Below, piece after piece: positions 22,195 through 47,262 of a stretch of DNA of 64,000 nt (the first letter of the stretch is position 1; the number at the start of each line of letters is the position of its first letter). This DNA comes from Asterionellopsis glacialis (lineage: Eukaryota; Bacillariophyta; Plagiogrammaphyceae; Rhaphoneidales; Asterionellopsidaceae), in assembly GCA_014885115.2 (NCBI GenBank), contig WKLE02001169.1:1-64000 (forward strand), in the 5' to 3' direction. The notes beneath the pieces were generated by a model that saw only the letters and a program-made list of their open reading frames with translations, was not told the origin of the DNA and did not search any database. The translations under genes and the position numbers were made by a program.

Positions 22195-22479
22195 TCATTC
22201 ATCATCTTGTTGTATTGTCGACTTCTTGATGTCGCTGTTGTTGTTTTTATTATTGAGAGAATCTATCAATTTAGATGTTCCTGCACAAATTAAGTAAAAC
22301 CCAGCAGCATAACCTAAAAATCTCAATGCCTTACCAGTCCCTTCTGATGACTTACCAAACATTATTAAAGCTTTTCGAACAGGTTCCTCTAAGGATGCAG
22401 CCACAGATAATATGAGTGTATGTTCTATGTTCAGTTTGTCATTGCCGCCATAACCATATTCAGATAGTGGATTTCCCAT
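22195..22479 (-). CDS. Small hypothetical membrane protein
   Basis: 94 aa from the ATG at 22479 (MGNPLSEYGYGGND). The frame extends upstream to 22572 through a His-rich stretch but without an ATG. Residues about 55-75, RFLGYAAGFYLICAGTSKL, could be a single membrane-associated segment. The tail is Asn/Asp/Lys-rich. No family recognised. Its 5' half lies in the 816-bp repeat that also carries the 5S gene. The second copy of that repeat (29145-29353) keeps part of this frame, but its start codon has changed from ATG to ACG and the rest of the gene is missing, so this is the parent copy. Confidence 0.5.
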   Translation of the reverse strand: MGNPLSEYGYGGNDKLNIEHTLILSVAASLEEPVRKALIMFGKSSEGTGKALRFLGYAAGFYLICAGTSKLIDSLNNKNNNSDIKKSTIQQDDE

Positions 22480-23179
22480 GATGATCAGATGGTGGTGGTG
22501 ATGATGTGTTGGATTGGGATGAGGTTGAAGCTGTCTTTGTTGTGTGGAATTTTGTGTGTCATCTATATCCAACAGATGTGTGTTGTTGGGATTTTTGCAT
22601 TGGAGGGTGGATGGAGTCTCCTTCTGTCTCTCTTCGTTTTGTCTTGTTCTTTTGGGTATTTTGGTGATGATGATGTCGTTTACCAGTGTTTATATAATTT
22701 GACGACAAGCTTGTCGGCAGGAACGACCATACAAAGATGACAGCACCGCTTCCCGTCTGCTCAGCGAAGTTAAGCATCTTCTGGCCCGGTTAGTACTACG
22801 GTGGGGGACCACGTTGGAATCCCGGGTGTTGTTCTTTTGCCATTTTTGCCTTTTTTGCACCCCTTAAGCACTCGTAGAGGTCCTACCCGTCGTTCTCTTT
22901 TGGTCCTGTTGAAGAAAGCCTCCACCACCATCAGCATTCATCTACGCAGCCTTTTGAATTGAAAAAGAATAATCAGGTGGAAAACAATATACATGGCTAC
23001 TGACTGCTTCTGGGGCTTCTTTAAGTTCTACTGTAACAATGCCCACCCACTCCAGCCAACTCTTTTGAGTGCTTGCTATGTAAGTTTCTTAACAAAAAAG
23101 AACTAATTCAATATCTCTACTATGTATGTCTGTATAAATGTGTACCCTCTATCATCTAGAGAGCCTGCCACAGAAAATA
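22364..23179. repeat. 816-bp direct repeat, copy A (contains 5S rRNA)
   Basis: This block is repeated at 29145-29960 with a constant offset of 6781 bp and no net indel. I counted about nine substitutions, all in the first 200 bases (22371-22563); the remaining roughly 616 bases, including the 5S gene and over 300 bases of 3' flank, look identical by eye. It begins inside the small membrane-protein gene and ends at CAGAAAATA. Confidence 0.9.
22720..22835 (+). rRNA. 5S ribosomal RNA, copy A
   Basis: The sequence matches the eukaryotic 5S pattern. The 5' end GAACGAC (22721-22727) pairs with the 3' end GTTGTTC (22828-22834) to form helix I. CGTCTGCTCAGCGAAGTTAAGC and CCCGGTTAGTACTACGGTGGGGGACCAC cover the internal control region and the conserved 3' half. 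A T4 run at 22835-22838 is the expected Pol III terminator. Length is about 116 nt; ends are uncertain by one or two bases. It is the RNA of the large-subunit central protuberance. It lies inside a duplicated block rather than a tandem 5S array. Confidence 0.92.
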
Positions 23180-23225
23180 AATGAATAGCTGCCTGCATCT
23201 TCACTAAGGGGTCTTTCATAGCAAA

Positions 23226-23262
23226 TGTGCAGTGTGCAGTGTGCAGTGTGCAGTGTGCAGTG
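23226..23262. repeat. Heptanucleotide tandem repeat (GTGCAGT)n
   Basis: Five near-perfect copies of the 7-mer GTGCAGT lie in tandem, just outside the end of repeat copy A at the edge of the CpG-free block. A slippage-type microsatellite. Confidence 0.9.
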
Positions 23263-24265
23263 ATTGTTGATTTATGGTAATTATTGTGATGAATACAAAT
23301 ATAATGAGGGTTCTAATACTTCTTTTCGTTCTATTGTTGAAAACTTGATGAAGTGTCATATACCTAATACTCAATTGTGATGCACATTTTTATTTGTAAA
23401 TGATAGATCTTAATGGTGCCAAAGTAAAAATGTTGATTAACTTTTTTTACTAAAATGTTGTCACAATACTAGAGTACTGTATAGTGATAATGTACCATTA
23501 TAGCCACTCCAAGCTGTTTACCTCATTGAGGGCAGCAGGAGCTTGAACCATGAAAAACAACAATCACACTGTTCCAATGGGTCCACCTCTTCACTAAAAC
23601 AAATAAGGAGATATCTTGGTCAACAAAAAATCAGCAGCATATTACCTTAATTCCTTAGTTAAGTAGGAAAAGGTGCTCTTAATAAATCATTATAAAAGCT
23701 AGAGTATAAAGAAAAGCAAAACACCAAGATGTGGGCTGGTAAAATACAGGGAAAAGAACACAAAATTCAATTTTGTAGTACCCTTGTATTATAATGAATC
23801 ACCAGTGAGATATGTTAATGGTACTGGTTTGAGATTCTATTTATTCTCCTGTAGTCCACACACAGCAATAAGAAATGGTCAGGTTTTTATCCAGCTTAAA
23901 ATTGCTTTTAAAAACAGGAGAATTTCAAACTACACTTAAGCAACATTTCTTAGTTGATGACAACACTATGATGTTGCAACTAAAAGAACATCAATAAATA
24001 TAAACAGAATTTATCTTCTTGGAATTTTCCTTTCTAGGTAATATATCCTAATGTAAATTTTCAAAATTTCAAACAAATCCTTAATTACCACTGTTGATAA
24101 GGTATGTAACTTCCTCTGTGTATGAACAAATTATGAAAGATGATGCAATTGGAACATAATACAAAAGCATCATTACCTTGTTATTTTTGAAAATTTCCTA
24201 ATACATTAAAACTACTTTTCTACTACTACCAAATACTATCAAATAACTTTAATCACTCATACTAT

Positions 24266-24836
24266 TTACATAGTTGCTTTCATCCTTCTCATTTTGTTGC
24301 TGCTGGTATCATCCTCATCATAAACACTTTTTTCTTCACTCAAGTCTTTACTGGGGTCAAGAGGGTCCTCCTCTCTCTCAACTATACACCATACTCCTGC
24401 CTCAATCACTTGATCCATTTCCTCCATAAGTTCATCATTCCACTGATCATACAACAAATTACAGAAATTATGCTTTGTCAAATATCTTCTCCTTCTGTGA
24501 TTCAAATCATGTGACCAAGAATATAAACCATTGTCCTGATAGTAAGTCAAACAGGGAGCTTTCCATGCACCTGGTGGTTCCTTTTTTGTTTTGTTGACAT
24601 TTTAGAACAGGGTTGTATGTTTCCCTTTTCCCATCCAGTACTCCACAAATACACTACCTTGGATCCAACCCTTGTGAATTTTGTCATTTCATTGAGACAA
24701 TTTTGGCACAAGTAGTGCTCATCTGACAAGTACATCTTCAGGTCAACCAATGGTTCTTCTTCTTCTTCCTTATCCTCGGAAGAGGAGCCATCTTCACATA
24801 TATCCTCTTGTTGCTCCTGCTTGTGCCTGCAATCCT
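24266..24836 (-). pseudogene. Coding remnant, unidentified, one frameshift
   Basis: On the minus strand an open frame starts after TGA at about 24850, just behind an acceptor-like ATGCTCAG, and reads through an acidic segment (EDKEEEEEPLVDLKMYLS), DEHYLCQNCLNEM and VVYLWSTGWEKG. At an A6 run near 24585 the frame slips by one base and continues as EPPGAWKAPCLTYYQDNG, HDLNHRRRRYLTKHNF and WNDELMEEMDQVIEAG, to a stop at 24266. The two halves together are about 190 codons with amino-acid use typical of a real protein. All Arg codons that I checked are AGA/AGG, as forced by the CpG-free background. I do not recognise the family. It could be a decayed transposon gene or a degraded cellular gene; a sequencing slip in the A6 run is also possible. 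Confidence 0.4.
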
Positions 24837-27800
24837 CTGAGCATGTTGATCACAACAAAAGAGGCAGGAATATATCAGTGATTTCATTAAGTTGACTATT
24901 GGAGACTTGACGGAAAAGTCTAGGTTTACATTGTGTACTAGCCAGCATCAAAGATGAAATTACTATGGGTTGTATGAGCAAATAGAGGAAAGAAGAGAAG
25001 GATAGTACATTGAACAAAAAGAAAAATTGAATGGATGACATCATTTCACACACCAATCAGAAGAGAGTATTTCTACAGTATTTAGTACAAATGGGTAACA
25101 GGTTGATTCTAGCATAAATTTGTATTGATTCATAATGAGTAGGACTAATACTAATTAAATTATGCCATGACAAAAAAATTTACTTATTAGCAAGACCAGA
25201 TGTAGAATGCCATTCTGAAATCAAATATGCTGGATAAACAACAATTTCAAACTTTAAGCTTGAATTTGCTTAATTTTAGCCAATTTTTCAAGCTTGAAAA
25301 TGAAACACAAAGTTTCTTATTGGTTTGTGTAGACTGTAAATCAAATTTTCAAGTTCAGAACAGAAAATACATTACCTAAATTATGCTTAAAACTAGCACA
25401 AGTACAACTAGTACCAAAATGAGAAAAAAATTAGTCATTAGCCAAAATAAGGAGACACAGAGTATGAAATCCCATTACCAATATAATGGATTGTCTTTAA
25501 GCATTTTGAATGGTACTTGAAGATTCTGTAGTTTTGTAACATGGTAAAAAATTCATTAGGTTGTACATTAATTTTTTGTCCTCTGTGGAAGCTTTCTTTG
25601 TAACATGCTTGTCAATTCACTTATTTAATCAGTTTTTATTTCGTTGTTGAGATTAATTACTGCAGAAAGTTCTTAGATGGCTGCTCTTCTGATGGGGCAT
25701 TCCACTTCCCTGTTCTTGTTGTAACTTTAGCCCACTAAGGGTATAAAAATGATAATTTACAGCTTTGGTTGTTGCTGCATTGGTCATATTCTATCTAGCC
25801 ACCTCTGTTTATCTTTTGGTTGTAGGGAGTAATAACTTCATTAACTATATGAAGATAAAGAACTCAATATGTTGTTGTGTAGTGGCAATTTTTTTTAGTA
25901 TTCCTAAAGAGGGCTGTTCTGGTTACTAAAATAGCACTGTAGTACTAATCAAACAACAATTCTGAAAGTGTTGATACAAGAAAAAAACCTTTCATGCTTG
26001 GTAAACATTGAGCTTGTACTGATTATTGCTTAGTGTGATCTTAGGACTACTGTAGTACTAATAAAACAACAATTCACTTGTACTATTGTTACATGGAAGA
26101 CCTATCATCATCAGCAATTACTATATATAATGTATCTATATTTATCTTGTATGTTGTTTCAAGATACAGCAAGTACTGTAGTCTAGTGATTATGCTCATA
26201 TATGCTTCAGCCAGTATTGACTTTGTTGCATGTTACACTACATAGAGTACTAGATAAGGCAATTTTAGGATTGTTCTATTTTATACTACTGCTGTGTACA
26301 TTATAGATCTGGAAATCCCACTAATGCAAACAATAGGGATCATCTCAGTGTCAAATGAAAAAGAGAAGAAAGCCACTAATAAAGTTTTTTTACAGGCAAC
26401 AATGGAGGAAGAGTAGGCAATTGACCTGTCTCAATGGATGTGGTTCAAAATGGTGACAACATCATAAATGTAACAATAATTTTTTTTAAAGTCCTCTATT
26501 ATACTGTTTGTAATGTCTTTGAAGGGGTAGTATATTAAAAATCCTATTTTTAGGAGTACAAGTATACTAATAGGTAGTAATAAAGCTTTAAAAACAATTA
26601 GGGAAATCAAGAGGTGTTATGCATCTTGAAAATAACTGCTTTTGAACAACCTTCTGGGGGCAATATTTGAAGAGGAAAAGTTTTATTTCTTCTAGAATAA
26701 CAAATGGTACTATGTAATGAAATATTTTGCCTTGCTGGAGGTAAGACAGTTGTGGTGCAGTATTTGTTCTATAAAAGATAAAAAAATCTACCTGGCACAT
26801 AGTTTTTTTTAGCTATTATTTGATAATATGTTTTTCTGATTAAAAGGAATGAAATGGATCTTAAACAAGAATATACAAGCATGGTATGTGGTAGCTCTCT
26901 GCAGGCCATGGTGTTGGTGCAGTAAGCAGGTTTATATTCTACCATGTTCTACTGTTGTAGTAGTAGAACCTCCCCTCAGGGTCAAGTTATCAGTCAGTCT
27001 TTTGTTTTCTATTTTGTTGGTCACTCTGTTGTACCATATGTTTGTTAATTAATCTGAATGTGGCTCTGCAGCTGCTATTCACCATATAGATTAATTGTGT
27101 GTTCTTTTCTAGTAGTACCTGTATGCAAGAATATGCCAGTAGCATCTTCTTGTACTTTTTATTCTTGTTTAAACAAAAACACTAGTTATTCATGATCTGT
27201 ACAGAGTTAATTGACACACAGCTGCAAATAGTAGTGCAGTAAGAATGTGTGGTAATCTAAGGGGACAAGCAGGCTGGTGCAGAAGTTGTACTTATTTTTT
27301 TTGTTCTGCTGAATTTGCTTTTTCCTTTTTCCAGAAATACAGCACAAAATTGTTTTTTTAACAATACTCATATAATGGTTTACTAATCTCCCCAATATTT
27401 TGTGATATGTGATCAATATGCCCAAGACATGAATATACTATATGCTATTGTTGGTTACTCCAATATATTATATGATTCCATCCCATCATAGCTGGTCAGT
27501 GTTCTGTGGTCATAAAATTTGACTTACTTGCATCTTAGATCTCACTTGTCAGTTCTCAGTTCTCAGCTTTCAACATTTGCAATTAGATATCCACTATTGA
27601 CTTCACCTTTTAATTCCAGAATTATAAGATGTAATACTAACTCTAGTTAGTGGTGCCAATGTGCAAACCATTATATTTCAGTTCCTCACCCAAAGACCTC
27701 CATTAACCACATCTTAATATAGTCCTACCTCCCAGTAAATATAGTTTCTGGTGTATTGGTGTGGGTTATATACCTTACACCCTCACAATAATAAAATAAA

Positions 27801-29144
27801 ACAGATATTTATAGCTTTTCAAGAATAGAGCACTGTATCTATTTTGCTTCTCCTCTTTTCACTAGTCCAGGTAATCATAAAAATCTGTGCTGTAGCAGGA
27901 GGAGTTATAAATACAACAATCACAAATAAATACAGTAATAACCTCTAACACAACAAGACCTGGACATACAGTGAATAATATACATGGTATATTCTAAAAA
28001 AACAAAACCAGGAGATTTGGATAAATGTACCATTCCTAAAGAACCATTCTCAATAGTATTCCAAAACTACTATTCTGCTCCTAGAATTGGAGGAGTCCCC
28101 TGTTTAGAGATGATATATCATTGTGTGTATACATGGTGCTAGTAGTAGTAGACAAAATACTACTGTTTGAATTAAAGCTCCTAGAACAGGAGCAGAGAAG
28201 AAATAGACTACCTAAAACCATGATTTTGCAGTAATAACCTATAATCCACACATATTATCTTTAACAGAGATACATACTGCAACTACACCAGCATTGTTGA
28301 AACTTGACTTACTTTATTTCTTGAATGCAAAAAATCATATCAGGAGGAGGATTGAAAACACTTACTTAATTAAAAAAGTAAATTTGATGGAATTATTATC
28401 AAATATATTCTTTCTACTGGTACTTCCATATGACCTCTGAGCATTCTGGAAGTCACCTTTCTAGACATATTTTATGACTGATGGTGGTGATGACAGATAA
28501 TGTGTGTAAATGCTGATGGATAAAATATTATCATTTTAAAAGAGATAGCATAGCCTAATTATTAAAATAATGCACATTATTGTTTTCAAAAATAGTATAC
28601 CTTAACAATTATTATAATATATCTATTCATAATTTTATTCATGTATAATGAGAAAGTTATATGTTACACAAAGAAATTTTTGTTAATAAATCAATAAGAG
28701 TAAGACCAAGAACAAAAAAGAAGATGAAACAAATACAATAGGGAAGAACAAAAAAAGAGGAACAAAAAAGAACACCATGCAAAGAAGATTTGCTTGATGT
28801 AATTTGGTTGAACATTGCTGAGCCAACCCACATAAAACAACTAAACCAACCTACAACTGGTCCAGAGATTAAAAAACTGATTTGTCTAGAATATATAGTC
28901 TCATTTATTGCCATTTATATATCTGTTTCTGGGTCTGCTGTTGCCACTGACAACAGTGGACCATCTATGAAAATGGTTACCATTTTAAAAAGTTAATTAA
29001 TTTTTGTATTTATTTATAAAAAATTAGTTATACCAACATGTGAAGCCTTCATAAAAGTAGCAGACATAATAAATATAGATAACACAAATAAAATAAGAAC
29101 CTGTATCAATAGACAAGAACAAGAGATCACCCCCCCCCAAAAAA

Positions 29145-29353
29145 ATTAAAGTATTTTGAACAGGTTCCTCTAAGGATGCAGCCACAGATAATATGAGTGC
29201 ATGTTCTATGTTCAGTTTGTCATTGCCGCCATAACCATATTCAGATAGTGGATTTCCCGTGATGATCAGATGGTGGTGGTGATGATGTGTTGGATTGGGA
29301 TGAGGTTGATGCTGTCTTTGTTGTGTGGAGTTTTGTGTGTCATCAATATCCAA
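29145..29353 (-). pseudogene. Truncated duplicate of the small membrane-protein gene
   Basis: Contains the His-rich leader and the GNPLSEYGYGGNDKLNIEH segment of the gene at 22195-22479. The codon equivalent to its start is ACG instead of ATG, and the coding sequence beyond SLEEPV is lost at the repeat boundary, running into unrelated CpG-free DNA. Not expected to make the protein. Confidence 0.7.
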
Positions 29354-29500
29354 CAGATGTGTGTTGTTGGGATTTTTGCATTGGAGGGTGGATGGAGTCT
29401 CCTTCTGTCTCTCTTCGTTTTGTCTTGTTCTTTTGGGTATTTTGGTGATGATGATGTCGTTTACCAGTGTTTATATAATTTGACGACAAGCTTGTCGGCA

Positions 29501-29616
29501 GGAACGACCATACAAAGATGACAGCACCGCTTCCCGTCTGCTCAGCGAAGTTAAGCATCTTCTGGCCCGGTTAGTACTACGGTGGGGGACCACGTTGGAA
29601 TCCCGGGTGTTGTTCT
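29501..29616 (+). rRNA. 5S ribosomal RNA, copy B
   Basis: Identical by eye to the copy at 22720-22835, with the same helix-I ends and the same T-run terminator. Offset is 6781 bp. Both copies look intact and should be transcribable by Pol III. Confidence 0.92.
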
Positions 29617-30103
29617 TTTGCCATTTTTGCCTTTTTTGCACCCCTTAAGCACTCGTAGAGGTCCTACCCGTCGTTCTCTTTTGGTCCTGTTGAAGAAAGC
29701 CTCCACCACCATCAGCATTCATCTACGCAGCCTTTTGAATTGAAAAAGAATAATCAGGTGGAAAACAATATACATGGCTACTGACTGCTTCTGGGGCTTC
29801 TTTAAGTTCTACTGTAACAATGCCCACCCACTCCAGCCAACTCTTTTGAGTGCTTGCTATGTAAGTTTCTTAACAAAAAAGAACTAATTCAATATCTCTA
29901 CTATGTATGTCTGTATAAATGTGTACCCTCTATCATCTAGAGAGCCTGCCACAGAAAATATTATACCCATCCAAACTATGTCAGCAACAAAAAAACCCTA
30001 TTTCTCCTCCTCTATTTTCACCACCGTCTTTCACCCTCTTTTCGTCCTTCTTTCACCTGTGTCTCATTTATACTTCGCCTCTCTTTCTCATTTTAAAATT
30101 AAT

Positions 30104-42517: not shown

Positions 42518-43359
42518 TTACATCAAAATACAGGTGTTTTGCCGGGGAAGGCAACCAATTTCTTCGGTGCGCACAATGAGCTCTTCACCTGGTTCTCCTA
42601 CTTTTCCATCTGAATCTTTACAAAACAACTGAATACCGTACGTGGAACCTGGTTTAAGACCTGATAGAGTAGCCAGGGTCATCATGCTAGATGCTGAAAG
42701 GTTTCTTGCGCTTGGTCCATTTTCTAGATCAGAATAGGACTTCCACTGCAGTTCATACTCTGAGATATCATGAGCAGCTTCAAACTCTACAGAAATTTCT
42801 GTCTCAACAGCAGAAATTAATTTTAATTTTGGCCCAACCATAATGGGTGTGGGTGTGGTTGGTTTCACACCAACCGATTTCAGTTTTGGTTCAGGCTTTG
42901 CCATTTCCTCAAGAGATTCAGTCGTTGCTCCTGTCATAGTAGATATTTTTGTTTGCAGATGTCCAACCGCAGGATCAACCTGGTGAGTTTTGATATTGTC
43001 CCAGTTCACGGAACACTCGTTTTCATTCCATGTGTAGAGAGCAGATTCTTCAGGGTACACTTTCTTGATTCTTGGCACGTCACCAGCAAACAACCAGGTT
43101 CCAAAAACAGCGTCCCAATTCATTTGTCCAAAGTAGTTTGTACCATAGAATCCAAAGTTTGTGGTCACCACTTGATGATGAGTGGCATGTTCCAGTGTGA
43201 ATGGAATCCGAGAGTGTCCTATCACAGCAACAAACAAAATAGAAAGAACTGAGAATAACCAGCCCCAAACATTGTTTGCTCCAACAATGAAGAGTGGTCC
43301 GAATAGATATCCAACACTTGTCCACAAAGTCTCAACCCAGTTGTTAGACAAAGCTGTAA
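42518..43359 (-). CDS. Fatty-acid-hydroxylase-like protein with FN3-like domain and CaaX end (5' part in gap)
   Basis: C-terminal 280 residues visible; the 5' part is lost in the gap at 43360-44192. After two hydrophobic segments (VGYLFGPLFIVGANNVW, LFSVLSILFVAVIG) come the histidine motif HATHH and NFGFYGTNYFGQMNWDAVFGTW, matching the last box of the fatty acid hydroxylase / sterol desaturase superfamily (HxxHH...NFG...D.LFGT), an ER-membrane di-iron fold. About 80 polar residues then lead to an FN3-like domain: PTPIMVGPKLKLISAVE, YELQWKSYSD and LSGLKPGSTYGIQLFCKD are the strand pattern of fibronectin type III. The last four residues are CILM before TAA, a farnesyl-type CaaX box. The catalytic half cannot be checked because of the gap. 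Substrate unknown; sterol or fatty-acyl hydroxylation is inference from the superfamily. Confidence 0.7.
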
Positions 43360-44192
43360 NNNNNNNNNNNNNNNNNNNNNNNNNNNNNNNNNNNNNNNNN
43401 NNNNNNNNNNNNNNNNNNNNNNNNNNNNNNNNNNNNNNNNNNNNNNNNNNNNNNNNNNNNNNNNNNNNNNNNNNNNNNNNNNNNNNNNNNNNNNNNNNNN
43501 NNNNNNNNNNNNNNNNNNNNNNNNNNNNNNNNNNNNNNNNNNNNNNNNNNNNNNNNNNNNNNNNNNNNNNNNNNNNNNNNNNNNNNNNNNNNNNNNNNNN
43601 NNNNNNNNNNNNNNNNNNNNNNNNNNNNNNNNNNNNNNNNNNNNNNNNNNNNNNNNNNNNNNNNNNNNNNNNNNNNNNNNNNNNNNNNNNNNNNNNNNNN
43701 NNNNNNNNNNNNNNNNNNNNNNNNNNNNNNNNNNNNNNNNNNNNNNNNNNNNNNNNNNNNNNNNNNNNNNNNNNNNNNNNNNNNNNNNNNNNNNNNNNNN
43801 NNNNNNNNNNNNNNNNNNNNNNNNNNNNNNNNNNNNNNNNNNNNNNNNNNNNNNNNNNNNNNNNNNNNNNNNNNNNNNNNNNNNNNNNNNNNNNNNNNNN
43901 NNNNNNNNNNNNNNNNNNNNNNNNNNNNNNNNNNNNNNNNNNNNNNNNNNNNNNNNNNNNNNNNNNNNNNNNNNNNNNNNNNNNNNNNNNNNNNNNNNNN
44001 NNNNNNNNNNNNNNNNNNNNNNNNNNNNNNNNNNNNNNNNNNNNNNNNNNNNNNNNNNNNNNNNNNNNNNNNNNNNNNNNNNNNNNNNNNNNNNNNNNNN
44101 NNNNNNNNNNNNNNNNNNNNNNNNNNNNNNNNNNNNNNNNNNNNNNNNNNNNNNNNNNNNNNNNNNNNNNNNNNNNNNNNNNNNNNNNNNNN
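43360..44192. other. Assembly gap (833 N)
   Basis: Run of N. Its left edge cuts the hydroxylase-like gene and its right edge abuts a tandem repeat, which may be why assembly failed. Confidence 1.
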
Positions 44193-44210
44193 ATATATTG
44201 CATACCAGGT

Positions 44211-44340
44211 ACAGGATTTGCATTTTTTGAACTTAATGTATGTAGGATTTAAATCACGTATCATACATTATTGCATACAGGATTTGCATGTTTTGAACTT
44301 ACTGTATGTAGGATTTGAATCATGTATCATACATCAGGTT
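44211..44340. repeat. Tandem repeat, about 66-bp unit, at the gap edge
   Basis: Two diverged copies of a unit beginning ACAGGATTTGCAT and containing TTTTGAACTTA.TGTATGTAGGATTT, then ATCA.GTATCATACAT: about 44211-44276 and 44277-44336. More copies may lie inside the adjacent gap. Confidence 0.75.
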
Positions 44341-45117
44341 TTGCTTATTTCATGAAATTCTCAAGTCAGGAGGATGTTTTTTAAATTGCAGTAGATTGAG
44401 GTATAAATACAGTAACGGCCTCTTGAATACCCGCCAAACCCCATGCACACCAACCTACTACTGACATCACTCTTAAACCACGTATGACATTACTACTACT
44501 GACGTCAATCTTAAACCACGTGTGAGATAAAGCACATACTAAAGGATATTCTGTAGTTAGCTGATCTCTGAAGAATATAATATACACCAAAAGTTATAAC
44601 AAACCTTTAGGTCATCATCACATAATTTATTATCTACAGTAGAATTCTTTTCCAAAGTCATCAGATGCCACGTAGCTGAAACTTCAAGATCCTAGAGTAC
44701 CTGGTAGTAGGAAATCTCCCACTGATTATGAGCTTCTTTTCAGGATCTCCCACTCAAATCTGTGGGAGAAGGTTGGTACGAGCTACAGAAAATCTACGGA
44801 GTACTTGAACAAAATAAAAATACCATTTGGTACTTTTACTTCTCCCACTTGTCTGTCCGTTGAGTTAGTGGGAAACAAGGGGTATCTCCCTCCCACCCTG
44901 GTATGTGAATCTCATTATTCCCAATGTTTAAGTGTAAAAACACCTTAAGTGGAAAATGTCTCAACGTATGTTGACTGTAGATTTGTACCATGATACAATG
45001 TACGTGTTCCTGGTACAGTACTGTACAGTTTTTTTCTTTTCTTCTTGTCTTTTTTTTCAAACAAAAATTCAAAAAATCGACATGCAATTGCAAGGTCATG
45101 GACTCCATGAGCGTCAA
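44341..45117. other. Intergenic region, nothing coding
   Basis: Contains a repeated TCTTAAACCACGT (near 44470 and 44509), several copies of GATCTCCCACT/TCTCCCAC (44715-44850) and scattered GTACC motifs (44700, 45012). No gene supported. Confidence 0.5.
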
Positions 45118-46770
45118 AGACAAACCATCCCAACAACAACAGATGAGCCTATTCTTGGCTCAGATACTGTTGTTAACAGTAATAAAAGATTGGGAAGGTG
45201 GGAATTATTTAATGAATGTAATGCTGGCAATGTCTTGGGATGTGGCCATTAGGTCTTTTGCTTCAGGGTGAGATATATTAATCTATAGATTTATATGGTC
45301 ATTCTTCATCTTTTAGTGAGCACTTTTGACACAAAGAACTTGAGAGGATGAGTATGGATTTAAAGGCAGGAGATTATGTGAAGGTTGTCAGCAAGAAGTA
45401 TCAAGGGGCAAATGGGCAGGTGAAGCATAGAACTCCGTGCTATATTTTCCTCAAGGTAAGTGGGATGGAGGATATTATCAAGGTCTGGCATACTTTGGCT
45501 AAATTGAATATGGTGAGGACATGGGTTGGTATCAGGAGCTGTGATGCTGTTGGAGGTGTGAGTGTGAGTCCTGATGACATTGTTGCCAGTGGTAGGGATG
45601 TCATGGATAGTGATTGGACACTACTATTTGCTAATACAAAGCCTGGTAGGTTGGTTCAAATTGATCAGGATTAGGTTGGACAATCCTAATTCTTGGTATC
45701 TTGAAGGGATTATAAATTGTGTCAAGTCATGAGAAGATGTTGGAATGTGCAGGGTAAAATGGAACCAAAATTGAATAGAATTTTAGAAGGAAGGAAGTAG
45801 GGTGGGGAAGGGGAAATAAAAAAGTTCAGATGGGAGAGTGTCAAAATAAAGGTATTGTCTTGAGGTAGGGGTGACTTAGTCAACATGGTCAGCAGACTAT
45901 TTCCAGGAGGAATGAGAAATAAGAAACTCTTGGAATTTCTTTGGAGGGTAACAAGGGGAATTGTATGTCTGTTTATGGCTTGAAGAACCAAGAATGGAAT
46001 GATCTAAATTCATTGTTCACGACTATAGACATTTTTGAGGAGGTAGGGATGATATTATTTTATAGAAGATATACCAGAGAGAACATGACTTAGTAAGTTA
46101 CATTAGGGCATCCTACTGACTGGGGCAAAAGATCTCTGAACCATATCTTTTCTACTTTGAAACATAGTAGAATTTTGTCATTTCATAATCCATTCCATTT
46201 TTATAGTGTTTCAGTACTAAGAATTCTTTACCTACATATACGGTTCCAAGCACCCAACTGTCCCTACCTATGCCTTCTAACTAACTAGAGTTTCTTTTCT
46301 TCCATTTTAATTTAGTATTTCAGGGCATCAAAGACCCACAGATTCCCATTTTTCCAAACACAACAAACATTAAGCTTACTTTTCACAACAAACACACATA
46401 TTTGAACACACTTGTCTTCAGTGTTCTCCTATATGATCAGGTAAGGTTGGAGCAAAAAATGGCCCTTGTAATGCTCCCAATGATTCATTCTTGCCTGCAT
46501 ATCTATTTAATAGCCAGGGCCCTCAACACCATTATGCGGGTAGAAGCAATACCTCATACTACTTGAGCTCCAGCATGGTTTGCTCTGTCATTGGATGGTG
46601 ATGATTCTGTAGCTTTGTTTGTTTGAGAGCAGTGTCTATTGTTAGATCATGTGCCACACAATGAGTACCCTCACAGCATGGATTATGCCAATATATCATC
46701 ATGGTGCCAGAGCAGTGTACCACTCTGTGGATACCAGATGTTTTCTCTGCATATGTAGGATTTTTTTTTC
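45118..46770. other. Second CpG-poor island
   Basis: Only about four CpG (near 45435, 46020, 46240 and 46537) in 1.65 kb, although GC is near 40 percent. It has the same signature as the large block at 23180-29144. It includes the ORF at 45348-45674. Confidence 0.6.
45348..45674 (+). CDS. Hypothetical ORF with KOW-like start, in CpG-poor DNA
   Basis: 108 aa, ATG at 45348. The opening LKAGDYVKVVSKKYQGANGQV has the V-x-V...G-x-x-G-x-V spacing of a KOW motif, found in ribosomal and transcription-elongation proteins and in some transposon proteins. Later VWHTLAKLNMVRTWVGIR and IVASGRDVMDSDW have normal protein composition. A GTAAGTGG donor-like site lies directly after CYIFLK, so part of the frame could be intron. 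The almost CpG-free codon use suggests a silenced transposon gene rather than a host gene. Function unknown. Confidence 0.35.
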   Translation: MSMDLKAGDYVKVVSKKYQGANGQVKHRTPCYIFLKVSGMEDIIKVWHTLAKLNMVRTWVGIRSCDAVGGVSVSPDDIVASGRDVMDSDWTLLFANTKPGRLVQIDQD

Positions 46771-47262
46771 ACCCCGAAATATTCCTTTTTTGACTTGGCC
46801 CATTATGAATTTAAAAAAAAGATGTCTGCCAGTCTATCCTAAAATACTAACCTTCATACCCCTCCCCCGTGTCCCCCTCCAGGCTCCGGCAGAGTGGAGC
46901 CCATTGGGTTATGAGTTTTTAGTAGCATTGTGGTCCAAAATTGCACGGTCAGGGCAAGAGTTACGTTCAACATGTACGAAAGGGTACGCACCGTGAATAA
47001 CCCTACCTACGATACGATAGACAACCACCGCACCCGAGACAAGAGACTCCTCTCGTTGAACGACAGAGAGACCACTGTTGCTCCTGAAGAACTGATTTGG
47101 AGGTAAAGAGGCGCACACCAACAAGGGGGCAAAAAGGCTCTTCGTTTAATTTTGTCCCGCACGTGTCTCGTTGTCTCTCTCACCTCTCACCCTTTGTTGC
47201 ATTGTTGAACATAGACAGCAATTACTTTCTCCATTTACAAGAGATAAGTACACCAAAACAAG

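Follow-up and report, generated by a model that had tools for sequence, protein, structure and literature searches.

Introduction

Among the closest described systems to the DNA considered here are the methylated repeats of diatoms. In Cyclotella cryptica, the accessible part of the report describes methylation mainly at CpG, spanning repeat regions of up to 30 kb (PMC5124317), and in Phaeodactylum tricornutum the methylation of repeats is described as dependent on DNMT5a (PMC9998398, also accessible in part). Here we describe a tract almost without CpG at positions 22946-29226 of a 64,000-nucleotide stretch of the diatom Asterionellopsis glacialis (contig WKLE02001169.1, positions 1 to 64,000; the whole stretch is called the window below). 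It resembles the two diatom systems in the division between repeat tracts and gene-rich tracts, in the CpG context, and in the presence of DNMT5-family enzymes. The difference is that the Cyclotella and Phaeodactylum work maps methylation, whereas here it is the mutational trace alone that is seen; an extinction of CpG is not described in the accessible parts of those two reports.

A second comparison is with the deamination of 5-methylcytosine (5mC) in vertebrates and their methylated transposons. The likeness lies in a loss specific to CpG, a gain of TpG and CpA, a restriction to DNA that is presumed to be methylated, and the sparing of genes. The loss is more complete here, with a ratio of observed to expected CpG (o/e) of 0.02 in the tract and about 0.06 in pooled CpG-void windows, than in vertebrate DNA, and 5mC is presumed. 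A third comparison is with repeat-induced point mutation (RIP) in Neurospora and the RIP-like TpCpG hypermutation of Microbotryum (PMC5381629, accessible in part), which share with the tract a concentration of C-to-T changes in repeats. They differ in that the ratio (CpA+TpG)/(ApC+GpT) shifts here in the opposite direction to RIP in Neurospora, and that the TpCpG preference of Microbotryum is at most weak here at residual sites. No description of diatom transposon tracts from which CpG has become extinct was found in the literature searched, subscription papers lying mostly outside that search.

We consider it likely that the tract is old nuclear DNA, at least partly derived from transposons, which has long been CpG-methylated and silent and has lost its CpG by deamination. 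The process is best explained as one of a known kind that has here gone unusually far towards completion.

Loss of CpG in the tract

The feature in question is the following.

22946-29226, no strand: CpG-void tract, o/e 0.024, delimited by CpG count against expectation

Over its 6281 bp the tract contains 4 CpG (at 23327, 24777, 24911 and 25642), where its C and G content would predict 169.7. From 25643 to 29226 there are none against 94 expected, the next CpG being at 29227. An earlier note on this DNA, made from the letters alone, had counted four CpG in about 6.28 kb and none from 25643 to 29227, and the recount agrees. Chance is excluded as an explanation (Poisson log10 P of -66, and of -47 with the background o/e, 0.73, as the null). 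The CpG-free run of 3,585 bp is the longest among the non-overlapping pieces measured, most of which are only 3-4 kb long; the next longest, in locus L051, is 1,970 bp.

The GC content of the tract is low (0.33). GpC has an o/e of 1.01 and GpT+ApC of 1.02, so that CpG alone is depleted, and TpG+CpA stands at 1.32. The same note was thus right that GpC, TpG and CpA are plentiful, and that the depletion goes beyond what low GC explains.

Its description of the surroundings as ordinary in CpG holds for most of the window, where 1-kb bins outside the tract have o/e values of 0.44-1.08, and fails at two bins at 45-47 kb (0.12 and 0.28). These correspond to a further feature.

45112-46775, no strand: second, smaller CpG-poor tract; o/e 0.08 over 45100-46537, with a 256-bp relative (77%) on contig C1

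The window also contains 833 N, at about 43300-44250, where frames on the minus strand run into unread letters. One protein of the window, eIF3b, is matched almost exactly by an MMETSP transcript and has relatives in named diatoms.

Transposon remnants and other CpG-poor tracts

The two halves of the tract differ in content.

23853-25339, minus strand: decayed DNA transposon with terminal inverted repeats, about 1.5 kb, ends approximate, with minus-strand coding remnants; recognised by dispersed relatives and inverted-repeat ends
26150-29146, no strand: second half of the tract, CpG-free, without a long frame and almost without relatives; probably older relic DNA

DNA searches were made of the window's own assembly (40.3 Mb in 1503 contigs), and all match counts are lower bounds. 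The first half of the tract has at least 19 other genomic matches, at 68-86% identity, over the two ends and the middle of the transposon, and these constitute one repeat family. The ends of 23853-25339 pair as inverted repeats (40 of 55 positions, with 3 gaps). The segment 24547-24750 on the minus strand aligns at 58% identity over 57 residues with part of a longer relative (L049, contig C204), a different piece of which matches the DDE_1 profile with an E value of 1.7e-4 and a score of 21.6 bits, slightly short of the cut-off of 22. When six open reading frames (ORFs) from the tract itself were run in a Pfam profile search, none scored above the cut-off. On these sequence comparisons, we read the element with moderate confidence as a decayed DDE_1-type DNA transposon.

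The second half has at least one other genomic match (contig C247, 80% over about 80 bp), and there is no ORF longer than 85 residues in 26150-29146. It is probably older relic DNA.

The relatives of the tract are themselves poor in CpG: 20 matched stretches on 15 other contigs contain 10 CpG in total, against about 72 expected. At some of the related loci, L003 and L007 for example, CpG is back to normal no more than a few hundred bases from the match. For the genome at large, a spaced sample of 25 stretches was taken from numbered contigs, of which 2 were dropped as mostly N; the sampling falls short of strictly random, and windows in genes and between genes are pooled. Its 158 windows of 500 bp comprise 18 with an o/e below 0.2, 14 between 0.2 and 0.4, and 126 at 0.4 or above. 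The earlier note had regarded a genome-wide o/e near 0.1 in all intergenic DNA as fatal to its interpretation, and such a value is not general in this pooled sample. The tract is thus one of many CpG-poor tracts, several of which carry relatives of its transposon. The note's picture of a single element sharply bounded between two 5S repeats is not supported.

The composition of such DNA was compared over 112 void and 283 normal windows, the classes being picked by CpG o/e. CG is 0.06 in the void windows and 0.80 in the normal ones, TG and CA are 1.38 as against 1.20-1.21, GC is 1.05 as against 0.90, and TA is 0.74 in both.

Mutational trace of CpG decay

If an ancestral CpG decays on one strand in one copy of a sequence and on the other strand in a second copy, TG comes to face CA. 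This trace was sought in 31 alignments of the core of the tract with 15 loci, chosen to avoid overlap and giving 3840 dinucleotide columns. TG faces CA 47 times, as against 6.7 expected if sites are independent, while the mirror control, GT facing AC, occurs 5 times against 6.7 expected; since a given part of the core recurs in alignments with several loci, the TG/CA events are partly non-independent. Judged from these alignments, the core evidently once contained ancestral CpG that has since decayed.

The same trace can be followed in Copia reverse transcriptase (RT, RVT_2), for which there are 50 matches in the genome, nine of them read. Their CpG o/e values are 0.98, 0.94, 0.44, 0.36, 0.33, 0.25, 0.19, 0.17 and 0.06. 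Seven of the nine are depleted (0.06-0.44) and two are not (0.94, 0.98), and the loss of CpG is thus graded. TpG+CpA o/e is 1.24 and 1.13 in the two CpG-rich copies and 1.25-1.59 in the others. Four depleted copies give, over their 6 mutual alignments, a total of 46 TG/CA mismatches and 0 GT/AC; aligned to the CpG-rich copy L085 (4 alignments), they give 13 TG/CA and 2 GT/AC. Four related copies were compared with L085 at 101 aligned CpG sites of the latter; TG or CA stands at 59 of these and CpG is retained at 10, the direction of change being assumed. The control, GpC sites of L085, shows the matching transitions at 14 of 65 sites, with 40 kept. Together with the raised TG and CA of the void windows, these counts bear out a depletion specific to CpG that carries the mark of decay to TpG and CpA.

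Two of the copies, L086 (contig C1403) and L090 (contig C760), have stop-free Copia RT frames with a CpG o/e of just 0.25 and 0.33.

The decay trace bears on the idea, prompted by the low GC, that the tract is a foreign or organelle-derived insert with a CpG-poor composition of its own. The GC of 0.33, the direct repeats at the flanks and the lack of a long ORF would all fit such an origin. It would have to be reconciled with a first half whose matches are repeats dispersed through CpG-poor DNA elsewhere in the assembly, with a TG/CA trace showing that former CpG decayed, and with a void edge that is contained within the flanking repeat copies (see below). It was set aside on the dispersed relatives and the TG/CA trace, and we regard it as highly improbable, noting that the argument from relatives does not reach the second half, which is almost without them.

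DNA cytosine methyltransferases

The earlier note had named the absence of any 5mC and of a DNA methyltransferase as a finding that would count against methylation. Matches to PF00145 are present on 6 contigs of the assembly. Two pieces on C368 match the Protein Data Bank (PDB) chain 7r76 with E values of 1.8e-40 and 2.4e-66, and C1019 matches the same chain with 8.8e-26. The PDB name of 7r76 is 'DNA repair protein Rad8', and we take it to be the structure of a fungal Dnmt5. On C398, a methylase that is most like DNMT1 chains is joined to a chromodomain-like segment, which at 24.9 bits narrowly misses the cut-off of 25.1. C44 has a PF00145 profile match, and the C466 gene is DNMT2-like and was left out of the support for methylation. 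On these matches, the genome encodes several DNA cytosine methyltransferases, those of C368 and C1019 being DNMT5-like. A search for the uracil-DNA glycosylase (UDG) family gave two matches in the genome.

On C597 (L052, 1480-3087, minus strand) the methylase lies in a single open frame of 535 residues and is most like bacterial HhaI among solved structures. The contig is taken as assembled, and could be a contaminant.

In the accessible part of a survey of marine microeukaryotes (PMC9998398), DNMT3, 4, 5 and 6 are described, diatoms having chromodomain DNMT4s. The same survey relates the DNMT4 enzymes of diatoms, of which nine have chromodomains, to fungal MIP/RIP enzymes.

Origin of the depletion

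On the basis of these observations, we hypothesise that transposon relics are held for long periods in a CpG-methylated, silent state. Methylated C at CpG would deaminate to T on either strand, so that nearly all ancestral CpG would become TpG or CpA, while the genes and 5S units, assumed to be unmethylated, would retain theirs. The 5mC on the void tracts would presumably be maintained by an enzyme of the DNMT5 type or by a chromodomain enzyme, and the mutations would arise by spontaneous deamination and not through an enzyme. Sustained CpG methylation with deamination had been put forward in the earlier note; the CpG-specific mark of decay and the methyltransferase genes speak for it, while methylation itself is deduced.

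Several observations weigh against this explanation. The gain of TpG+CpA in the tract is modest, at 1.32 compared with 1.23 in the other DNA of the window. Of the five stop-free Copia RT copies, three are already depleted (0.17-0.33), so that loss of CpG precedes loss of the frame. A high level of methylated CpG does not always deplete CpG, and some species with little 5mC are depleted: prasinophytes have high 5mCG and yet enriched CpG, and Naegleria is the reverse (PMC12695648, accessible in part).

The extent of the loss raises a further difficulty. Normal windows, of which 187 were counted, have a (TG+CA)/CG ratio of 4.4. For the core the ratio is 216 (Poisson range 84-793), and a further 98 void windows give 76, a value biased upward because they were picked for low o/e. 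In bulk vertebrate DNA the ratio is near 15. The loss is therefore stronger than we would expect from passive deamination at vertebrate-like rates, which is also to be counted against the explanation. In a simple two-way balance, C-to-T change at CpG would be about 40- to 100-fold faster than the reverse change, or more, and the estimate for the core is a lower bound if the tract began richer in CpG.

Because of this excess over the vertebrate level, a CpG-directed mutator is retained as an alternative, although an unlikely one. It would be a genome defence resembling RIP but acting at CpG, in which an enzyme, perhaps a chromodomain, DNMT4-type or DNMT5-type methyltransferase, targets transposons and turns their CpG into TpG or CpA in bursts, driving CpG near to extinction with a forward rate some 40 to 100 times the reverse one or higher. 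Besides the completeness of the loss, a mutator would be in keeping with the chromodomain-like methylase gene on C398, with the kinship of diatom DNMT4s to fungal MIP/RIP enzymes (PMC9998398) and with the RIP-like TpCpG pattern in Microbotryum fungi (PMC5381629), both as described in the accessible parts of those reports. The end state, on the other hand, would be the same after passive decay of a steadily methylated tract. The base before residual CpG is T in 25% of cases in void DNA and 33% otherwise, a direction that fits a TpCpG preference, but the overall preference at the 5' base is not significant (p 0.08). The RT copy L090 has 11 TG to 1 CA at former CpG sites, as a mutator acting on one strand might leave, although codon position or selection may perhaps be responsible; in the other three of the four depleted RT copies (L086, L087 and L088), TG and CA changes are interleaved.

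The earlier note had also mentioned repeat-induced mutation. In its classical form, RIP at CpA lowers the ratio (CpA+TpG)/(ApC+GpT) and raises TpA/ApT. The first ratio is 1.434 in void and 1.183 in normal windows (1.278 in the core), a rise where a fall is predicted; the second differs little between pooled void windows (0.815) and normal ones (0.785), though it is raised in the core (0.941). On these indices the classical CpA form was rejected, the first ratio moving in the wrong direction.

Long-term methylation with deamination thus remains our preferred explanation. If the depletion is due to 5mC, this diatom offers a local counterexample, with transposon tracts almost without CpG beside normal genes. 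It would also follow that diatom DNA under long-term silencing could be charted from raw assemblies by CpG o/e, with no need of methylation data. So strong a loss raises the question of the rate at which CpG mutates in methylated diatom DNA, and of whether an enzyme contributes.

Flanking repeats and 5S genes

The tract is flanked by two direct repeats of 816 bp, each with a 5S rRNA gene.

22364-23179, plus strand: direct repeat copy 1, containing the start of a small minus-strand ORF, a 5S gene and a 234-bp CpG-free tail
29145-29960, plus strand: direct repeat copy 2, 99.0% identical to copy 1
22719-22837, plus strand: 5S rRNA gene copy 1 (RF00001, 100.8 bits)
29500-29618, plus strand: 5S rRNA gene copy 2 (RF00001, 100.8 bits)

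The edges of the tract were expected from the earlier note to fall sharply at these repeats. They fall inside them, the left one 108 bp beyond the 3' end of 5S copy 1 and the right one 273 bp ahead of 5S copy 2, and the 816-bp unit itself carries void DNA. Copy 1 has its last CpG at 22945, leaving its final 234 bp free of CpG where about 5.9 would be expected at the background ratio. The matching stretch of copy 2 is CpG-free too, with 0 CpG against about 7.1 expected over 29727-30024, which runs across the end of the copy; copy 2 also opens with 82 CpG-free bp. The repeats, described in that note as ordinary in CpG, are so in their gene and 5S part only. Because a void stretch lies inside both copies, void DNA most likely adjoined the 5S unit before the segment was duplicated, as far as the two copies allow this to be reconstructed.

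The two copies differ at 8 positions and have no gaps. All 8 mismatches lie within the first 201 bp, the remaining 615 bp, including the 5S gene, being identical (P about 1e-5, calculated post hoc), and 2 of the 8 are CG in one copy and TG or CA in the other. We read the repeats as a separate event, a local duplication that would have been followed by gene conversion homogenising the right three quarters with the 5S gene.

The closeness of the tract to two 5S genes, at 108 bp and 273 bp, could mean that it belongs to 5S biology, as a spacer, an insulator or part of a homogenised array. The genome has 10 5S matches over the cut-off, 8 of them outside the window on 7 contigs. Void DNA adjoins the gene at two of these seven (C207, L040, and C584, L043), on one side of the gene, the last CpG before the void being 297 bp from the 5S gene on C207 and about 90 bp on C584. 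At the other five, no void tract is present in the 1.5-kb flanks examined, and none of the 15 contigs bearing relatives of the tract is among those listed in the 5S search. A special role in 5S biology therefore has very little probability in our estimation, and the association of the tract with 5S is incidental. The 5S genes outside the window have a CpG o/e of 0.87-0.95, a value for which selection alone could account. Protection of the 5S units from methylation, the other possibility raised in the earlier note, would be compatible with these data.

Direct repeats around some 6 kb had also suggested a long terminal repeat (LTR) retrotransposon with 5S-bearing repeats. This was rejected, as the 816-bp unit is covered only by the window's two copies among the 15 matches listed; the remaining 13 extend over all or part of the 5S region.

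The small ORF on the minus strand at 22195-22572 (125 residues) has no Pfam match up to an E value of 1. Copy 2 contains a duplicate of its start, and the frame there (29024-29353) extends into void DNA.

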